Assembly (NCBI GenBank): GCA_016180575.1 | Contig: JACPAY010000016.1 | Location: 1 to 46,458 of the forward strand | Length of the DNA: 46,458 nucleotides | Source of the DNA: Candidatus Omnitrophota bacterium | GTDB lineage: Bacteria; Omnitrophota; Gorgyraeia; Aquiviventales; Aquiviventaceae | Reading direction: 5' to 3' | In this document: piece by piece, positions 2,464-42,374 of the stretch | How the letters are laid out: every line of letters begins with the position of its first letter | Position numbering within the stretch: the stretch's first letter is position 1 | Notes under the pieces: generated by a model | Database searches by the model: none | What the model was told of the DNA's origin: nothing | The model's input: the letters and a program-made list of their open reading frames with translations, nothing else | Translations under genes and position numbers: made by a program

Positions 2464-3144
2464 ATGCCTGATGGGAAGCGCCCGCTTGCGCGGGCCGTGA
2501 TGGGGGGAATCGTGTCACTGGTGTTGTGCGGGAGCCAGGCCGGCCGGGCGGACGAGGTCAAGCTGAAGGACGGCGCGACGGTGTCCGCCACCGTGCTGCA
2601 GCGGGACGGTGAAACCGTGATCCTGCAGGTGCCGCGCGCATCGGTCGAGCTGGTGAACGGCGCACCGCTTCCGCCGCCGGTGGCGGCCGGCACCCCGGCC
2701 CCGGAGTTCACCGCGGTGGACCTTGCGGGCGTCACCCGCACCCTGAGCGAGCACCGCGGGCACCCCGCGCTCGTGCAGTTCTGGGCGAGCTGGTGCCCCC
2801 ACTGCCGCTCGGACCTCTCCTTGGTGAAGCAGCTGTTCACGCAGCACCAGGGGAAGCTGGGCCTGGTGACGGTCAGCATCGACCAGGACCTTGAGCAGTT
2901 GCAGGCGTTCCTCAAGGAGCAGCAGGTGGCCTTCCCCGTGATCGCCGCCGCATCGCATCCGGACCTGGCGGAGCGCTATGAGGTGCAGGGCGTGCCGGCC
3001 TACTACCTCATCGACGCTGACGGGGTGATCGCCAAGACCTGGAGCGGGTCGGTCACCGAGCACCCGTCCGATTTCGAGGAGGTCGTCGCCCGCCTCATCA
3101 GCGGTCCAGCGCCTCAAGCTGCCGCTGCAGGTTCTGCCAACTGA
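2464..3144 (+). CDS. Secreted TlpA/ResA-like thioredoxin-fold protein
   Basis: 226 residues. The ATG at 2464 is chosen because AAAGGAG lies 5 nt upstream (2452-2458). An N-terminal hydrophobic segment ends near AGRADE, consistent with a signal peptide or anchor. Residues ~30-65 (VKLKDGATVSATVLQRDGETVILQ) look like a small beta module. The thioredoxin fold follows, with the active site WCPHC (C111, C114) and the cis-proline region VQGVPAYYLID. It is likely a periplasmic thiol-disulfide oxidoreductase used in cytochrome maturation or disulfide reduction; the partner is not visible. Its 3' end overlaps the convergent M48 gene by 47 nt. Confidence 0.88.
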   Translation: MPDGKRPLARAVMGGIVSLVLCGSQAGRADEVKLKDGATVSATVLQRDGETVILQVPRASVELVNGAPLPPPVAAGTPAPEFTAVDLAGVTRTLSEHRGHPALVQFWASWCPHCRSDLSLVKQLFTQHQGKLGLVTVSIDQDLEQLQAFLKEQQVAFPVIAAASHPDLAERYEVQGVPAYYLIDADGVIAKTWSGSVTEHPSDFEEVVARLISGPAPQAAAAGSAN

Positions 3145-4087
3145 CCGAGCCTCTCGGGTAGAGCCGCTGTGCCTCCCGCAGCGCCTTCCGCTGCGCCTCA
3201 ACGTCCGGTATCAGATACCGGTCGTTAGCCGGGTGTGTTGGCCGGTATCTGATACCGGAACTGGTCTCCGCGAGATACCGTTCGAGGTAGTCGCGCCGCA
3301 CGCTGGTGTACGGGTGGGTGCGCATGAACGGCCAGGGGTAGTCAAACCGGCTGAAATCCTGCAGCAGATCCAGCGCCGCCCGCGGCGCAAACCCCGCTCG
3401 GCTCACGTACCGGATCCCCAGCTGGTCCGCCTCCAGCTCCTGTTCCTGGCTGTAGCCGCTGTTCGCCACATCCTGCAGGAGGCCGACGGCATCGACGGCG
3501 ATCCGCCCCGCCTGCTGCGCGGCGTCGCTTGCGCCGCGCGTCGCCGCCGCGGCGCCAGCGGCGGCGAGGGCGATCATGAGCTGTTGCTGCTGGAGCCGCC
3601 GGTAGCGCTTGACCAGGTGCTGCGCGACGGTGTGCGCCAGCTCATGGGCGAGGATGAACGCCAGCTCATCGACCCGGCTGCCGCGTCCGGCGAGGTACTG
3701 GACCATCCCGGTCGAGAGGTAGATGCGGCCGTCCGCCAGCGCGGCCGCGTTGGGGTCGTCATCCGCATAGAGGTAGGCGCGGTAGTGCAGGGCGGGGCGT
3801 TCGGTGACGCGGCTTAAGCGGTCCACGACGCCCTGGACGTCCATCCCGGCGAGCCGCTCGTTCCACCCGAGCCGGCGCGCGCCCTGTTGCTCAAACTCCC
3901 TGGCTTGGATCGCGCTGATCTCCCGCTCGATCTCCAGCGCGTCCGCCGATTCCTCCGGCGCCGGGGTCGGGCGAACGGCGTACTGGGGCGTCGCGCACCC
4001 GGCGAGGAGTAACAATACGGTGGGTAAAGCGTAATGCGTAATGCGTAATGGAAAGCGTGTCGATAGTCGAGCGCCCGAGGTCTTCAT
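3098..4087 (-). CDS. M48-family zinc metallopeptidase lipoprotein
   Basis: 329 residues. The lipoprotein signal ends in LLLLAGC (C31). The zinc site is HELAH (H148, E149, H152), with the downstream Glu in QELEADQLG. The family includes BepA/Oma1-like periplasmic quality-control proteases. The start region is unusual: residues RITHYALP are encoded by a family E repeat arm, and the ATG itself lies just inside the other arm. A second oddity is near the C-terminus, where GIRYRPTHPANDRYLIP is encoded by a family C palindrome (3205-3258) that keeps the frame open. It lies 33 nt downstream of the helicase gene on the same strand, so the two may be co-transcribed. Peptidase call secure; substrate unknown. 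Confidence 0.9.
   Translation of the reverse strand: MKTSGARLSTRFPLRITHYALPTVLLLLAGCATPQYAVRPTPAPEESADALEIEREISAIQAREFEQQGARRLGWNERLAGMDVQGVVDRLSRVTERPALHYRAYLYADDDPNAAALADGRIYLSTGMVQYLAGRGSRVDELAFILAHELAHTVAQHLVKRYRRLQQQQLMIALAAAGAAAATRGASDAAQQAGRIAVDAVGLLQDVANSGYSQEQELEADQLGIRYVSRAGFAPRAALDLLQDFSRFDYPWPFMRTHPYTSVRRDYLERYLAETSSGIRYRPTHPANDRYLIPDVEAQRKALREAQRLYPRGSVSWQNLQRQLEALDR
3205..3258. repeat. Family C nested palindrome inside the M48 gene
   Basis: CCGGTATCAGATACCGG (3205-3221) and CCGGTATCTGATACCGG (3242-3258) are each palindromic and are inverse copies of one another around a 20-nt loop. The flank on the 3258 side reads AGTTCC on the minus strand, as in the other two copies (19231 and 41865 regions). 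It is inserted in frame in the coding sequence of the peptidase. Confidence 0.9.
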
Positions 4088-6178: not shown

Positions 6179-6212
6179 ATGAGAGGCTGGGCGAAATGGT
6201 ACCTGGTACCGG
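6155..6212. repeat. Family D palindrome over a start codon
   Basis: The arms GGTACCTGGTACCATTTCGC and GCGAAATGGTACCTGGTACC pair at 19 of 20 positions around a 17-18-nt loop. The loop contains the ATG at 6179, and the right arm encodes residues KWYLVPG of the signal peptide. A reduced form, AAAGGTACCCGGTACTTTT, is at 42374-42391. Confidence 0.85.
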
Positions 6213-11345: not shown

Positions 11346-11490
11346 GGTCGTGTCTCAATTTGGCGGGTCCTGCCGTCCCTCGACTCCCGTGGGTCGCTCG
11401 GGATCCTGAGCGAGGCCGAAGGCCGAGTCGAAGGACGCCGCCACCACGGGGTCCCCGGCTCTGCGTCACCCACCAAATTGAGACACCACC
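11346..11490. repeat. Family A inverted-repeat element, copy 2
   Basis: This is the same terminal sequence as 1576-1696 in the opposite orientation: left arm 11346-11375 and right arm 11459-11490 (CACCAAATTGAGACACCACC). The centre differs from copy 1 and holds its own dyad, CTCGACTC...GAGTCGA around a GGCCGAAGGCC core. Like copy 1, it ends 15-20 bp before a TTGACA promoter hexamer. Confidence 0.88.
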
Positions 11491-11505
11491 CCTCTAAAAG
11501 AACGC

Positions 11506-18435: not shown

Positions 18436-19121
18436 TGTACCGCGTCCTCCTCATCACCGACGACTGGCCGCGGAAGAAGCCGCTGAAGTCCGAGCTGCTG
18501 GAGCGCGGGTTCTCGGTGACGCCGGCGGCCTCCGCCGAGGTCTTCCGGGACGAGTTCGCCCCGCCCGACCACCTCGACGTGGTCGTCGCGGACCTTGAGC
18601 GGTGCGCGACGGAAGGCGCGAAGCTCTGCCACGCCCTGCGGCGGGAGCGGCCCTTCAAGGAGCTGCCGCTGGTCCTCCTCGTGACGGAGGAGCAGCTGGG
18701 GCGGATCGACTTCGGGCTGGGCATGGACGACTACCTCACCCTGCCGGTGAGCGCCAAGCGCCTCGCGGAGCGGCTCAACTTCCTCGTCTGGAAGCTCCAC
18801 CGGGTCTCGCTCAAGAACGGCTTCTCGCTGGGCGAGCTCGTCATCGATTTCGAGCGCTACGAGGTGCGCGTGAAGGGCGCGCCCATCGACCTGACGTACA
18901 AGGAGTTCGAGCTGCTGAAGTTCCTCGCCACCCATCCCGGCAAGCCGTTCACCCGGGAGATCCTCCTCGATAAGGTCTGGGGGTATGACTACTACGGCGG
19001 CACCCGCACCGTGGACGTCCACATCCGGCGCCTGCGCGCCAAGATCGAGCTGGGCGGGGCCGCCTACATCGAGACCGTCCGGAACGTCGGGTATAAGTTC
19101 CTCGCCCCTCCCGAGCCGTAG
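18435..19121 (+). CDS. OmpR/PhoB-family response regulator with altered receiver
   Basis: 228 residues. The receiver domain (1-120) keeps the acidic pair D9-D10 and the phospho-acceptor D53 (VVVADLE). The normally invariant Lys is Leu103 (DYLTLPVSAK rather than DYLTKP), so phosphorylation signalling may be altered. The C-terminal winged helix (~130-228: FSLGELVIDFERYEVRVKGAPIDLTYKEFELLKFL, RTVDVHIRRLRAKIE, IETVRNVGYKF) is canonical. There is no histidine kinase beside it. It overlaps nadE by 1 nt. It is one candidate, with the lone winged-helix gene at 23068, for binding the 11-nt repeat arrays. Confidence 0.9.
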   Translation: MYRVLLITDDWPRKKPLKSELLERGFSVTPAASAEVFRDEFAPPDHLDVVVADLERCATEGAKLCHALRRERPFKELPLVLLVTEEQLGRIDFGLGMDDYLTLPVSAKRLAERLNFLVWKLHRVSLKNGFSLGELVIDFERYEVRVKGAPIDLTYKEFELLKFLATHPGKPFTREILLDKVWGYDYYGGTRTVDVHIRRLRAKIELGGAAYIETVRNVGYKFLAPPEP

Positions 19122-19131
19122 CCTCCGCTTC

Positions 19132-19161
19132 TTGTTTTTCTCGCCATCCGTCAGGTATACT
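19132..19161 (+). promoter_or_regulatory. Promoter of the structured leader RNA
   Basis: TTGTTT 19132-19137, an 18-nt spacer, then TATACT 19156-19161. The predicted start is about 19168, 14 nt before the first paired strand of the leader RNA. Confidence 0.5.
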
Positions 19162-19181
19162 TCCAGTAACAAGAGGCAAGA

Positions 19182-19289
19182 GACCCTCGAAACGCCACAC
19201 CCGGAGCAATCCGGGGCCGGAAAACCACAGTTCCGATATCAGATACCCGCGGGTATCTGATATCGGGAGGCTGGGTTGCCGAAAGGGTC
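19182..19289 (+). promoter_or_regulatory. Candidate GEMM/c-di-GMP-I-like riboswitch aptamer
   Basis: P1 is GACCCT (19182-19187) with AGGGTC (19284-19289). A CCCGGA-GCAA-TCCGGG hairpin with a GNRA loop (19200-19215) corresponds to P1b. GCCACACC before it and GGCCGGAAAACCAC after it align with the GGCAAACC and GGGACGCAAAGCC segments of the GEMM consensus. The 3' part AGGCTGGGTTGCCGAA resembles UAGCCGGGUUGCCGA. G20, A47 and C92 equivalents appear present. The remaining arm is a perfect 34-nt palindrome (19233-19266), a family C repeat. Downstream are prepilin-like genes, a common setting for this class. The alignment was done by eye and the core departs from consensus at several positions, so the ligand is inferred. 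Confidence 0.5.
19231..19266. repeat. Family C palindrome within the leader RNA
   Basis: CCGATATCAGATACCCG (19233-19249) and CGGGTATCTGATATCGG (19250-19266) form a perfect palindrome preceded by AGTT, matching the AGTTCC flank of the copies at 3258 and 41863. It occupies the variable hairpin of the aptamer without disturbing the pairing around it. Confidence 0.9.
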
Positions 19290-19296
19290 GGCCGAG

Positions 19297-19342
19297 CCGG
19301 GTTCGAGGGTCAGGCAGGACCCTTGGAGCGCCCGGCAATTTT
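19297..19342 (+). terminator. Intrinsic terminator competing with an antiterminator
   Basis: The outer stem is CCGGG (19297-19301) with CCCGG (19331-19335) and the inner stem AGGGTC (19306-19311) with GACCCT (19318-19323), followed by TTTT (19339-19342). TTCGAGGGTC (19302-19311) can instead pair perfectly over 10 bp with GACCCTCGAA (19182-19191), the 5' strand of P1. Aptamer P1 and the antiterminator are therefore mutually exclusive, and ligand binding would favour termination. The U-tract is short. Confidence 0.55.
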
Positions 19343-19353
19343 GTTGAGGGGGA

Positions 19354-19854
19354 ATGGCACACCGGATGCGATCGCGCGGGATGACGCTGGTGGAGGTCAT
19401 GGTCGGCACCGCGGTGCTGGTCACCGGGGGCGGCGCGCTCCTGCTGGGCATGCACTACGCCCTGGTCCAATCGGATTACCTGAATCACACGCAGATCGCG
19501 CTCCAGGCCGCCCAGGGGGAGCTTGAGCGGCTCACCGGCGAGGCCTTCGGCACGCTGGCCACCGGCGCCGCGTACAATGGCGCCCGGCAGAGCGGCCAGC
19601 TCGCGGCCATCAACAACGCGGAGCTGCCTGGGGCGGCGCTGGGAATCCAAATCAAGACGTTCCCTGCCGGCACACCCTGGACGACGGCGACGCTGCTCGA
19701 CCTGCACGTGGCGGCCTGCTGGACTTCGCGCGGCCGCCGGATCGGAGAAGACCAGAACTGCAACGGGGTCCTGGACGTGGGGGAAGATGCCAATGGCAAC
19801 GGGTGGATCGACTCGCCTGCGATGGTCAGCACGCGGGTCGCCACAGATGGCTGA
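19354..19854 (+). CDS. Type IV prepilin-like protein (PilV/GspI-like)
   Basis: 166 residues. The N-terminus is a class III prepilin signal: a short basic leader, then RG|MTLVEVMVGTAVLV with Gly at -1 and Glu at +5, followed by the hydrophobic stalk. Near the C-terminus DQNCNGVLDVGEDANGNGWID has the spacing of calcium-binding DxNxNG loops. GAGGGGG (19346-19351) is a good ribosome-binding site just after the terminator. It is probably a minor pseudopilin processed by a prepilin peptidase not in this window. First gene of a four-gene cassette under the leader RNA. Confidence 0.85.
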   Translation: MAHRMRSRGMTLVEVMVGTAVLVTGGGALLLGMHYALVQSDYLNHTQIALQAAQGELERLTGEAFGTLATGAAYNGARQSGQLAAINNAELPGAALGIQIKTFPAGTPWTTATLLDLHVAACWTSRGRRIGEDQNCNGVLDVGEDANGNGWIDSPAMVSTRVATDG

Positions 19855-20344
19855 CATGGACCGCTTGGGGTTCACCGCGCTCGAGCTGGTCATCGCCACC
19901 GGCGTGGTGTTCGGCGTCATGGGCGGCCTGATGCTGATGACGACCGACGCGGGCAACCGGGTGTGGGCGCGGACGGATTCGCAGGTGGCCACCATGACGG
20001 CGGCGCAAATGGTCTTGAACCGGATGCGGGAAGACCTCCACGCGGCCTCGCTCGCCTCGCTCTCCGAGGAGGAACTGGGGTGCGATCCCGGCGCCATCTC
20101 GTTCCGGCGGGCCTCCGACGGAGTGGTCATCCGCTATCAGCTGGATGCCGCGGCGGGGACGATCCGCCGCACGGTGGGCGCGGCGACCAGCGTGCTCGCG
20201 CCGAACGTCTCGGCGATGACCTTCCCGACCTGCGACGCCGCCACCGGGGTGGTGCGCGTGGCGCTCACCACGCGCGTCGCACCGCGGCGGTTTCCGACGG
20301 CCACGCACATCGTGGAATCGCAGATGAGGGTCCAGAACCCATGA
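19847..20344 (+). CDS. Type IV prepilin-like protein (PilW/GspJ-like)
   Basis: 165 residues from ATG 19847 (ATG 19856 also possible). The leader MADMDRLG is cut before FTALELVIATGVVFGVMGG, with Glu at +5. The remaining ~130 residues include VLNRMREDLHAASL and ISFRRASDGVVIRYQLD, typical of PilW/GspJ-like minor pilins. It overlaps the upstream prepilin by 8 nt and the next gene by 4 nt, so the three are translated as a unit. Confidence 0.85.
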   Translation: MADMDRLGFTALELVIATGVVFGVMGGLMLMTTDAGNRVWARTDSQVATMTAAQMVLNRMREDLHAASLASLSEEELGCDPGAISFRRASDGVVIRYQLDAAAGTIRRTVGAATSVLAPNVSAMTFPTCDAATGVVRVALTTRVAPRRFPTATHIVESQMRVQNP

Positions 20345-21810
20345 CACGCGCCAGGCCGCGCGACAACCGCGGCTTCGTCCTCATCAGCAGCTACCTGATG
20401 CTGTTCCTGTTCTTCATCTACTCCAACGCCTTGACGATGCAGACCATGACCCAGCGCACGGTCGCCGACCGCGCGCGCGAGCAGCTCCAGGCGACGAACC
20501 TCGCGCAGGGGGCGATGGAGCAGCTCAGCGACGAGTTCTACCAGTTCCTGGCCGAGCAGGTGTACGCATTGCACTTCCAGAACAACGCGATCCAGGCGCT
20601 CCAGTGGCTCGACACCCTCGGGAACACCATCACCAGCGGAGGACTCGTCACCTCCACCGTCTCATGCGCGCCCTGCCTCAGCTACGAGTACGACGCCAAC
20701 GGCGCCCTGGCCATGAAGAGCAACTTCTCGGGTGGCCTGCTTGACGGGGTCGCCGCCAATCCGCGGCTGGCCAAGCTGCCAGCCGGCGACGGGAAGTCAT
20801 GGATTGCCTCCATCACGTCCACGGATCCCGCCAATGCCCTGGCGACGCGGCAGGTGACGCTGATCGGCGAGGCGACCGTCGGCGGGACAACCAAGCGCAT
20901 CCAGGCGGTCTACGACATCGTGCTGGGGATGTCGGACATCTTCCGCTACTCCTACTTCGTCAACAACTACGGGTGGTTCAGCCTCCAGGACGTCAACCAG
21001 CTCTACATCCGCGGTGAGGTCCGGGCCAACGGCGATATGGCGTTCAACGGCAGCACGTGGCGGATGTGGGTGGACGGCGACCTCTACGCGGCCAAGAACC
21101 CGGAGCTGGTCAACCCGGTGACCAAGCAGCCGGCGACCGGCGGCATCACCGGGGATCCCGCCGAGACAGCGAATCAGAAGGCCTACTGGCAGGCGTGCGA
21201 CACGGCGGCCTGCGACCGCGACGCGGCGCGTCCGACGCGGAAGCTCACGGTCCCAGGCCAGCCGGCCATCGGGGGGAGCGAGAAGGTCCTGCCCTACGGG
21301 AAGGGGTGGGACAGCGACAAGCCGAACCAGACCAAGTATGACGCCCAGACGACCCAGCCGATCCCGTACCTCGGCGACCTCAACTTCTACAAGAGCCTCG
21401 CCCTCCAAAAAAGCAGCAAGCTGACCTACTACGACAGCGCGGCGAAGAAGACCCAGACCATCAGCGCGGTCTATTCCAGCGACAAGCCGCTGGTGCTGGT
21501 GGGCACCTGGGCCAACCCGATCGTGCTGGACGGCCCCATCGTCGTCCCGGGCGACGTCATCATCAAGGGCTATGTCAAGGGCCGCGGCACGATTTACGCC
21601 GGCCGCAATGTGCACGTGGTGGGTGACCTGCAGTACGTGGAGCCCCCGCAGTGGGTCTCGCTCGAGCGCAACGAGAAGACCGGCCGCATCGCCCAGCGGG
21701 GCTATGGGCCGTACAGCAACTACGGGTACTCCCAGAGCAACCTCGGGACGGTCTGCAAGAGCGGGTCCTACTACAAACCTGGCGAGTCTGTCCCAGGGGG
21801 ATGCATGTGA
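20341..21810 (+). CDS. PilX-like pilus assembly protein
   Basis: 489 residues. The N-terminus DNRGFVLISSYLMLFLFFIYSNAL resembles a prepilin leader after Gly, but position +5 is Ser instead of Glu, as in PilX/GspK-type proteins. A helical region follows, then a beta-rich C-terminal half with RGEVRANGDMAFNGSTWRMWVDGDLYA and VPGDVIIKGYVKGRGTIYAGRNVHVVGDL, the repetitive strand pattern seen in large PilX-like proteins. It is probably a minor or tip pilin. It starts by ATGA overlap and ends 1 nt before the next start. Confidence 0.75.
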   Translation: MTRARPRDNRGFVLISSYLMLFLFFIYSNALTMQTMTQRTVADRAREQLQATNLAQGAMEQLSDEFYQFLAEQVYALHFQNNAIQALQWLDTLGNTITSGGLVTSTVSCAPCLSYEYDANGALAMKSNFSGGLLDGVAANPRLAKLPAGDGKSWIASITSTDPANALATRQVTLIGEATVGGTTKRIQAVYDIVLGMSDIFRYSYFVNNYGWFSLQDVNQLYIRGEVRANGDMAFNGSTWRMWVDGDLYAAKNPELVNPVTKQPATGGITGDPAETANQKAYWQACDTAACDRDAARPTRKLTVPGQPAIGGSEKVLPYGKGWDSDKPNQTKYDAQTTQPIPYLGDLNFYKSLALQKSSKLTYYDSAAKKTQTISAVYSSDKPLVLVGTWANPIVLDGPIVVPGDVIIKGYVKGRGTIYAGRNVHVVGDLQYVEPPQWVSLERNEKTGRIAQRGYGPYSNYGYSQSNLGTVCKSGSYYKPGESVPGGCM

Positions 21811-41784: not shown

Positions 41785-41858
41785 GCGCTCGTAGCTCAAC
41801 TGGATAGAGCATCAGCTTGCGGAGCTGAGGGTTCCGAGTTCAAATCTCGGCGAGCGCG
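41785..41858 (+). tRNA. tRNA-Arg(GCG)
   Basis: Acceptor GCGCTCG/CGAGCGC, D arm GCTC/GAGC, anticodon stem TCAGC/GCTGA with loop TTGCGGA, so the anticodon is GCG. T arm CCGAG-TTCAAAT-CTCGG, discriminator G. Bacteria normally decode CGC/CGU with tRNA-Arg(ACG) whose A34 is deaminated to inosine; a G34 version is unusual. Confidence 0.93.
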
Positions 41859-41862
41859 CTTC

Positions 41863-41900
41863 AGTTCCGGTATCAGATACCATGGGGTATCTGATACCGG
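41863..41900. repeat. Family C palindrome, copy 3, before tadA
   Basis: CCGGTATCAGATACC (41867-41881) and GGTATCTGATACCGG (41886-41900) form a 15-4-15 palindrome preceded by AGTT, as in the other two copies. It fills the gap between tRNA-Arg and tadA. Confidence 0.92.
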
Positions 41901-41909
41901 CCAGAGATC

Positions 41910-42374
41910 ATGACCGCCGCTGCCAAACCCGACGAGCAGTACATGCGCGAGGCGCTCAAGGAGGCGGAGCACGCGCTGGCGTCCAACGACCGGCCCATCG
42001 GCGCGGTCATCCTCCACCAGGGCCGCGTCATCGCCCGGGCGCACCACCAGGTGCGGCTGCTCCGGGACCCGACCGCCCATGCGGCCATCATCGCCATCAC
42101 GCAGGCGGCCAATGCGCTCCAGTCGGACCAGCTGCCGGAGGCGGTCGTGTACGTGACCCAGGAGCCGTGCGCGATGTGCGTCGGGGCGCTGCTGCTCAGC
42201 GGGGTCGCGCGGGTCGTCTTCGGGGCGACCGACCCCAAACGCGGCGCGTGCGGCTCGGTCGTGGACCTGACGGGCAACGAGCGGCTCAACCGCCGCCTCG
42301 TCGTGGTACGGGATGTACTGGCCGGGGAATGCCACGCGCTCCTGCGCAAGGCGACCACCAGCGCGCAGGCGTAA
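41910..42374 (+). CDS. tadA: TadA-like deaminase with catalytic Glu replaced by Ala
   Basis: 154 residues with the TadA/CMP-dCMP deaminase fold. The zinc ligands are kept: H57 and C87/C90 in EPCAMC. The proton-shuttling Glu of the HAE motif is Ala59 (DPTAHAAIIAI; codon GCC at 42084-42086), and the substrate-contacting Asn46 of the GHN motif is His. GAG to GCC needs two base changes, so a single read error is unlikely. The fold and the FGATDPKRGACGSV segment otherwise follow TadA closely. The gene follows a tRNA-Arg(GCG), which has no A34 to deaminate. It may be a relic, a non-catalytic binding protein, or a partner subunit. Confidence 0.85.
   Translation: MTAAAKPDEQYMREALKEAEHALASNDRPIGAVILHQGRVIARAHHQVRLLRDPTAHAAIIAITQAANALQSDQLPEAVVYVTQEPCAMCVGALLLSGVARVVFGATDPKRGACGSVVDLTGNERLNRRLVVVRDVLAGECHALLRKATTSAQA

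Follow-up and report, generated by a model that had tools for sequence, protein, structure and literature searches.

Can a dispersed palindromic repeat sit inside a regulatory RNA and leave it working? And if it can, how did the repeat get there? A leader in the window poses both questions. The window is the whole stretch of DNA that we analysed, 46,458 nucleotides from a Candidatus Omnitrophota bacterium (contig JACPAY010000016.1). A preliminary description, made from its sequence alone, read this leader as a c-di-GMP-I-like (GEMM-I-like) riboswitch ahead of a pilus gene, with a mobile-looking palindrome in its variable arm and a core so divergent that the ligand might differ. Here we conclude, with good confidence in the explanation as a whole, that the riboswitch controls a type IV pilin-like operon and that its P1b arm is occupied by a REPIN-like repeat.

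A c-di-GMP-I aptamer ahead of a pilin-like operon

The leader (19182-19345) lies on the forward strand between a response-regulator gene that ends at 19121 and a prepilin-like gene that starts at 19354. The covariance-model search that had been proposed as a check of its identity was run with RF01051 (c-di-GMP-I). The model matches 19184-19283 with 52.2 bits, where 35 bits is the gathering score. With its closing helix P1, the aptamer spans 19182-19289. Its minimum free energy fold is the three-helix arrangement of P1, P1a and P1b with a GNRA loop (z = -8.5 against shuffled sequences). P1 pairs GACCCT (19182-19187) with AGGGTC (19284-19289, segment B), and its 5' strand opens a longer segment A, GACCCTCGAA (19182-19191), that is kept in the sister species. 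P1a is the hairpin CCCGGA-GCAA-TCCGGG (19200-19215), capped by a GCAA tetraloop and constant in length among relatives. The core segments J1/2 (19192-19201) and J2/3 (19217-19224) were placed by the model alignment and a table of 114 parsed aptamers. The P1b arm (19223-19277) has the palindrome as its distal part. P1, the GNRA-capped P1a, the core segments and the 3' hallmark GGCTGGGTTGCCGAA are all found where they had been read by eye, and by sequence and fold the leader is a genuine riboswitch of the c-di-GMP-I class. We rejected membership of the c-di-GMP-I-GGC family (RF03167), whose model gives 54.3 bits against a cut-off of 59 bits. A box like TCAGGTATACTT occurs at 19150-19162, 20-30 nucleotides 5' of this aptamer, and several other aptamers of the genome have one in the same place; it is probably a shared promoter -10 region.

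The first regulated gene (19354-19854) encodes a prepilin-like protein with an N-terminal methylation motif (PF07963). Two further genes of the operon follow at 19856-20344 and 20341-21810. Neither protein has a match in Pfam; the product of 20341-21810 is probably PilX-like.

This leader is one of 12 RF01051 riboswitches in the 1.3 Mb genome. The model finds matches in 56 of the 59 related genomes of the class that were searched, with up to 25 in a single genome.

The palindrome belongs to a dispersed repeat family

Positions 19233-19266 equal their own reverse complement over all 34 nucleotides; no other perfect palindrome in the window is longer than 20. The preliminary description had also recognised this palindrome's kin at 3205-3258 and 41867-41900, and rightly so: these belong to one family of inverted doublets, GGTATCAGATACC..GGTATCTGATACC, with the consensus TTCC-GGTATCAGATACC-(spacer)-GGTATCTGATACC-GGAA. 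Pfam likewise identifies the M48 peptidase gene that holds the first of these copies and the tadA-type deaminase gene next to the second. In the M48 frame (3098-4087, minus strand) the repeat, at 3207-3256, comes after the Pfam domain has ended, and it leaves the frame open. The other copy, at 41862-41900, follows a tRNA gene (41785-41858) by a few bases and closely precedes the deaminase gene at 41910. It has the flank CAGTTCC in common with the riboswitch copy.

How widespread is the family? A 15-mer allowing up to two mismatches matches the genome 66 times in forward and 63 times in reverse orientation, against a single match for the reversed-pattern control. The exact 13-mer has 67 occurrences in this genome and none in the congener; only three of the other relatives searched contain it. 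In the stretches examined we count about 40 elements, 37 of 40 falling between predicted genes as delimited by our own simple gene caller (coding fraction 0.90). Of the clusters, 39 of 40 consist of two or three copies that end as inverted pairs. The doublets have A in the left centre and T in the right, their ends (TTCC..GGAA) are complementary, and their spacers often are too. One compensated base pair separates the window copy from the copy at C24; complementarity has thus been maintained.

This architecture recalls the REPIN, in which a short palindrome occurs as an inverted doublet around a spacer and forms a hairpin (PMC3116915). We call the repeat REPIN-like and do not file it as a REPIN, because our search of this metagenome-assembled genome (85% complete) turned up no linked RAYT gene with the same REP on its flanks. 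The sole Y1 transposase found in the genome has AAAGTACCGGGTACTTT repeats as its flanks, a family other than GGTATC, so that it is at most a candidate for moving the GGTATC element. These AAAGTACCGGGTACTTT palindromes lie on both sides of the transposase gene (L127, 1290-1330 and 2110-2170) and form a third family, which the congener has too. That the GGTATC element is mobile, and that some agent moves it, we infer.

The window holds other repeats. Inverted repeats with TGTCTCAATTTGGCGGGT at 1572-1697 and 11346-11491 bound a stretch of about 10 kb and are possibly the ends of a mobile unit. Another dispersed family, around GGGACNTGGTCCCGGGAC, has four window copies, at 6191, 8482, 10785 and 37417.

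P1b arms are a recurrent home for palindromic repeats

The palindrome in the variable arm, described from this one leader, turned out to belong to a wider pattern of many riboswitches and several repeat families. The GGTATC element occupies P1b in five of the 12 riboswitches of the genome (C10, C12:25612, C20:68700, C20:74243 and C24:6009). If the 37 intergenic elements were scattered across the roughly 131 kb between genes, the 12 arms, each some 22 nucleotides long, would be expected to hold 0.075 of them. The Poisson probability of five or more is about 2e-8, or 1e-6 if only four are counted; the five insertions may be non-independent, because C10 and C24 have both a C21-G46 core and a palindrome centre, CCCGCGGG, that occurs in no other copy examined, and the arm may have been exchanged between them.

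A second type of repeat, GGTGCC, takes up two or three further arms of the same genome: C13:20235 and C23:32466 carry a long GGTGCCTGGC element, and C20:38194 a single GGTGCCAGGCACC. Other genomes repeat the pattern with repeats of their own. In G013, CGATATCAGATATCG doublets occupy five arms, of which two resemble a tandem duplication; the sequence has 66 singlets across that genome and none in the 27 other genomes searched. G010 has a GGTGCC element in three arms. Where the arms themselves were read, palindromic P1b arms also turned up in G003, G016, G019 and G024.

Approached from the side of the repeat, the result is the same. The 30-mer GGTGCCTGGCTCNTCGCGNAGCGANGTGCC was searched, with up to two mismatches, across 384 genomes of the class, taking no account of where riboswitches lie. 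Seven copies turned up, in four genera. Six are in the arms of GEMM-I aptamers with RF01051 scores over the cut-off. The remaining copy (G011, L292) occupies the P1b arm of an aptamer whose core is interrupted by a 47-nucleotide double palindrome and which the model therefore fails to find at the gathering score. With all seven copies in P1b, this subfamily is seen only in P1b arms; members of the broader GGTGCC family also occur at other sites (for example G001 C17:23983 and C48:59270). Raw counts of GGTGCCTGGCTC contain chance matches in coding sequence and were set aside once their context had been read. In the L292 aptamer (G011:C73, 1465-1625), the 47-nucleotide palindrome pair, CCATGAACC..GGTTCATGG and CGGTGTACC..GGTACACCG, is inserted exactly between C44 and G45.

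Why P1b? It had been suggested that the repeat lies in the one helix whose length is free to vary, and the aptamer table agrees. P1a measures 17 nucleotides in all but five of the 114 aptamers (109), and the length of P1b varies between 19 and 94, in a sample from which insertions at other aptamer sites would tend to be missing because they evade the covariance model. P1b is the tolerant helix. Of the arms, it alone has an end that is not engaged in any conserved tertiary contact. In our model, the distal P1b helix gives way to the hyperstable hairpin of the repeat, and the pocket, the GNRA-capped P1a and P1 remain untouched; with these intact, the switch is predicted to work still. The conclusion that P1b arms are a recurrent, tolerated home for palindromic repeats in this riboswitch family, and that their occupancy is non-random, is well supported. 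Arms therefore turn over and cores stay.

The sister species carries a different arm

A comparison with a palindrome-free homologue, also proposed at the outset, makes this turnover visible. A search with the PilX-like protein (20341-21810) assigns the genome to Candidatus Omnitrophota. Its nearest relative, the congener Candidatus Omnitrophota nzgw327, has the orthologous leader on G001:C23, in synteny that extends over many flanking genes. In the core the two leaders are 95% identical on the 5' side and 85% on the 3' side; the sequence upstream is 87% identical and that downstream 88%. Their arms are 53% identical, which is the level of shuffled arms (mean 50%, maximum 56%). The flanks and core are thus nearly the same and the arm is wholly different: the arm has been replaced between the orthologues. 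Two more orthologue pairs (C13:85412 and C20:38194) also have arms at shuffle level. The arms of the C13:20235 pair are just over it, and both arms of the C15:102294 pair are short. Did the repeat arrive after the split from the sister species, or was it lost there? In this two-species comparison without an outgroup, gain in the present lineage is favoured because the whole repeat family is missing from the congener.

How did the repeats reach the arms?

One possibility is that mobile hairpins preferentially land in P1b or are exchanged there. The process would recognise an existing stem-loop, and the riboswitches would be continually re-armed by selfish repeats. We hold this reading tentatively, at well under even odds. 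Somewhat less probable, in our judgement, is that nothing transposed into the arms at all: the repeat would have reached the riboswitches once or a few times, and homologous recombination or gene conversion, acting through the conserved core, would have swapped P1b arms between paralogous riboswitches or copied them from one to another. The centre and core in common between C10 and C24 fit such an exchange. So do the lower-stem flanks common to C12:25612 and C20:74243, and the restriction of the tight GGTGCC subfamily to GEMM-I arms. Against it, the spacers of C12:25612 and C20:74243 match different non-riboswitch copies, the outer flanks of these riboswitches are unrelated, and different genera have different families at the same site. 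Either could have happened: a mobile-like element may have inserted, or arms may have been exchanged.

Could the palindrome instead be an operator, a protein-binding site put in the leader for regulation? The 13-mer GGTATCTGATACC is nearly palindromic by itself, and the family is intergenic in 37 of 40 cases, as an operator might be. The inverted-pair doublets described above, with their A and T centres, complementary ends and often complementary spacers, speak for a hairpin instead, as does the compensated difference between the window and C24 copies, and the repeat is missing from the congener. We regard the operator as very improbable and keep to the reading of a mobile-like hairpin.

The divergent core and the ligand

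The preliminary description had suggested that the divergent core might signal an altered ligand. The residues that matter most in c-di-GMP-I riboswitches are G20, A47, A48, C92 and the C44-G83 contact (PMC3764141). All are kept in the window, in Vc2 numbering: G20 at 19194, A47 at 19221, A48 at 19222, the equivalent of C92 (in J3/1) at 19279, and C44 and G83 at 19218 and 19270. The divergence is a compensated swap, from G21-C46 to C21-G46 (19195 and 19220). Among the 114 parsed aptamers, positions 21 and 46 are G-C in 95 and C-G in 19, with no other combination; since these counts ignore relatedness, a small number of events might account for the swap. Positions 24 and 43 likewise covary (A with A or G in 81, C with T or C in 30, three exceptions), and A47 is present in all 114. 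The C21-G46 core thus appears to be a recurrent variant of the family and not the sign of a new ligand.

The genome has four matches to GGDEF, two of them with the FKxxNDxxGH signature of c-di-GMP cyclases. An Asp in this signature marks c-di-GMP cyclases, and a Ser marks Hypr enzymes. With the ligand residues kept, the swap a family variant and GGDEF proteins present, c-di-GMP is the expected ligand. GEMM-Ib riboswitches of the cGAMP type have A at the G20 position; this base change is absent here, where 19194 is G. The G20 position has been described as a selectivity factor among cyclic dinucleotides (PMC9262584). A GEMM-I variant with another ligand, such as cGAMP, would account for a core that departs from the RF01051 consensus at C19, C21, C24, C43 and G46, and for the slightly higher score with RF03167 (54.3 against 52.2 bits). 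We think it very unlikely: all of G20, A47, A48 and C92 are kept, the core changes are compensated sets common within the family, and the two signature-bearing GGDEF proteins have Asp, not the Ser of Hypr enzymes. Least probable of all is an assembly artefact, which could arise because palindromes are hard to assemble and might be misjoined in a metagenome-assembled genome; the strands of the lower P1b stem are still complementary on either side of each insert, both flanks match the sister species, and independent genomes show the pattern with other repeats.

Expression platform and direction of control

Downstream of the aptamer, segment C, TTCGAGGGTC (19302-19311), is a perfect 10-nucleotide complement of segment A. 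It doubles as the 5' strand of a terminator-like hairpin (19296-19336, -27.5 kcal/mol), in which segment D, GACCCTT (19318-19324), is its 3' partner. The element extends to 19345 with a weak U tract, AAUUUUGUU; directly after the hairpin the sequence reads AAUUUUGUUG. Minimum free energy folds of the growing transcript pass from P1 to pairing of A with C, and then to P1 together with the terminator-like hairpin, in both orthologues. These folds suggest a simple mechanism. Bound c-di-GMP would hold P1, allowing the downstream hairpin to form. Without ligand, segment A would pair with segment C and block the hairpin. We lean slightly towards an OFF switch, and no further than that because the weak U tract makes termination uncertain.

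At four other riboswitches (C12:25612, C12:35411, C13:85412 and C20:74243) the terminator is built from the 3' strand of the aptamer itself, and an ON switch is therefore predicted. On these models the genome seems to use both signs. What would the palindrome do to such a switch? The isolated 34-mer hairpin has a predicted energy of -24.9 kcal/mol. It could fold first and draw the two strands of P1b together, and an effect on the kinetics of switching is plausible.

Two arrangements elsewhere bear noting. G000:C12:35411-35710 holds a tandem pair of GEMM-I aptamers with a terminator-like hairpin after each. The aptamers at G016:C7:594-705 and G016:C40:13847-13956, downstream of G000:C15:102294, and at L190 9189-9338 have a duplicated 3' half, with two GCCGGGNTGCCGAA-like segments, which could provide two alternative P1b/P1 partners.

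Comparison with known systems

It is well supported that this locus combines an ordinary ligand-binding class with an unusual pattern of palindromic repeats in its variable arm. It offers a clear natural case of short palindromic repeats in one tolerant helix of a regulatory RNA that probably works, with a repeat-free orthologue in a sister species. It raises the questions of how a hyperstable hairpin affects riboswitch kinetics and whether enzymes that mobilise hairpins prefer stem-loops. If P1b is indeed a preferred site, mobile hairpins have a route by which to diversify a regulatory RNA. In practice, such repeats may confuse covariance searches and classifications of riboswitches based on their arms. 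In the open-access literature that we searched, coverage of which is incomplete, we found no paper that joins riboswitches with REPINs in this sense and none on riboswitches of Omnitrophota; on riboswitches and palindromic elements, the only relevant item was a review of MITEs that merely raises the possibility.

With the c-di-GMP-I family (RF01051) the window riboswitch has in common the covariance-model match, the three helices, the GNRA-capped P1a, G20, A47, A48 and C92, and C44 and G83. It differs in C21-G46 in place of G21-C46, in C24 and C43, and in the dispersed palindromic repeat that serves as its distal P1b. With c-di-GMP-I-GGC (RF03167) it has the fold in common, but carries A where that family's consensus has G, at what we read as position 47.

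REPINs (PMC3116915) resemble the repeat in the inverted doublet with a spacer, the hairpin, the many copies, the mostly intergenic placement and the restriction to particular genomes. The repeat here is shorter, no matching RAYT adjoins a copy, and it recurs inside a riboswitch arm.

As for the platform, the Cd1 OFF switch of Clostridioides difficile lets aptamer and terminator coexist while an antiterminator competes with both (PMC9262584), and the predicted platform of the window follows the same logic. In the Geobacter pilM ON switch the terminator is made from the 3' strand of the aptamer, as in several riboswitches of this genome, although its ligand is cGAMP (PMC9262584). The U tract of the window is weaker than that of either switch.
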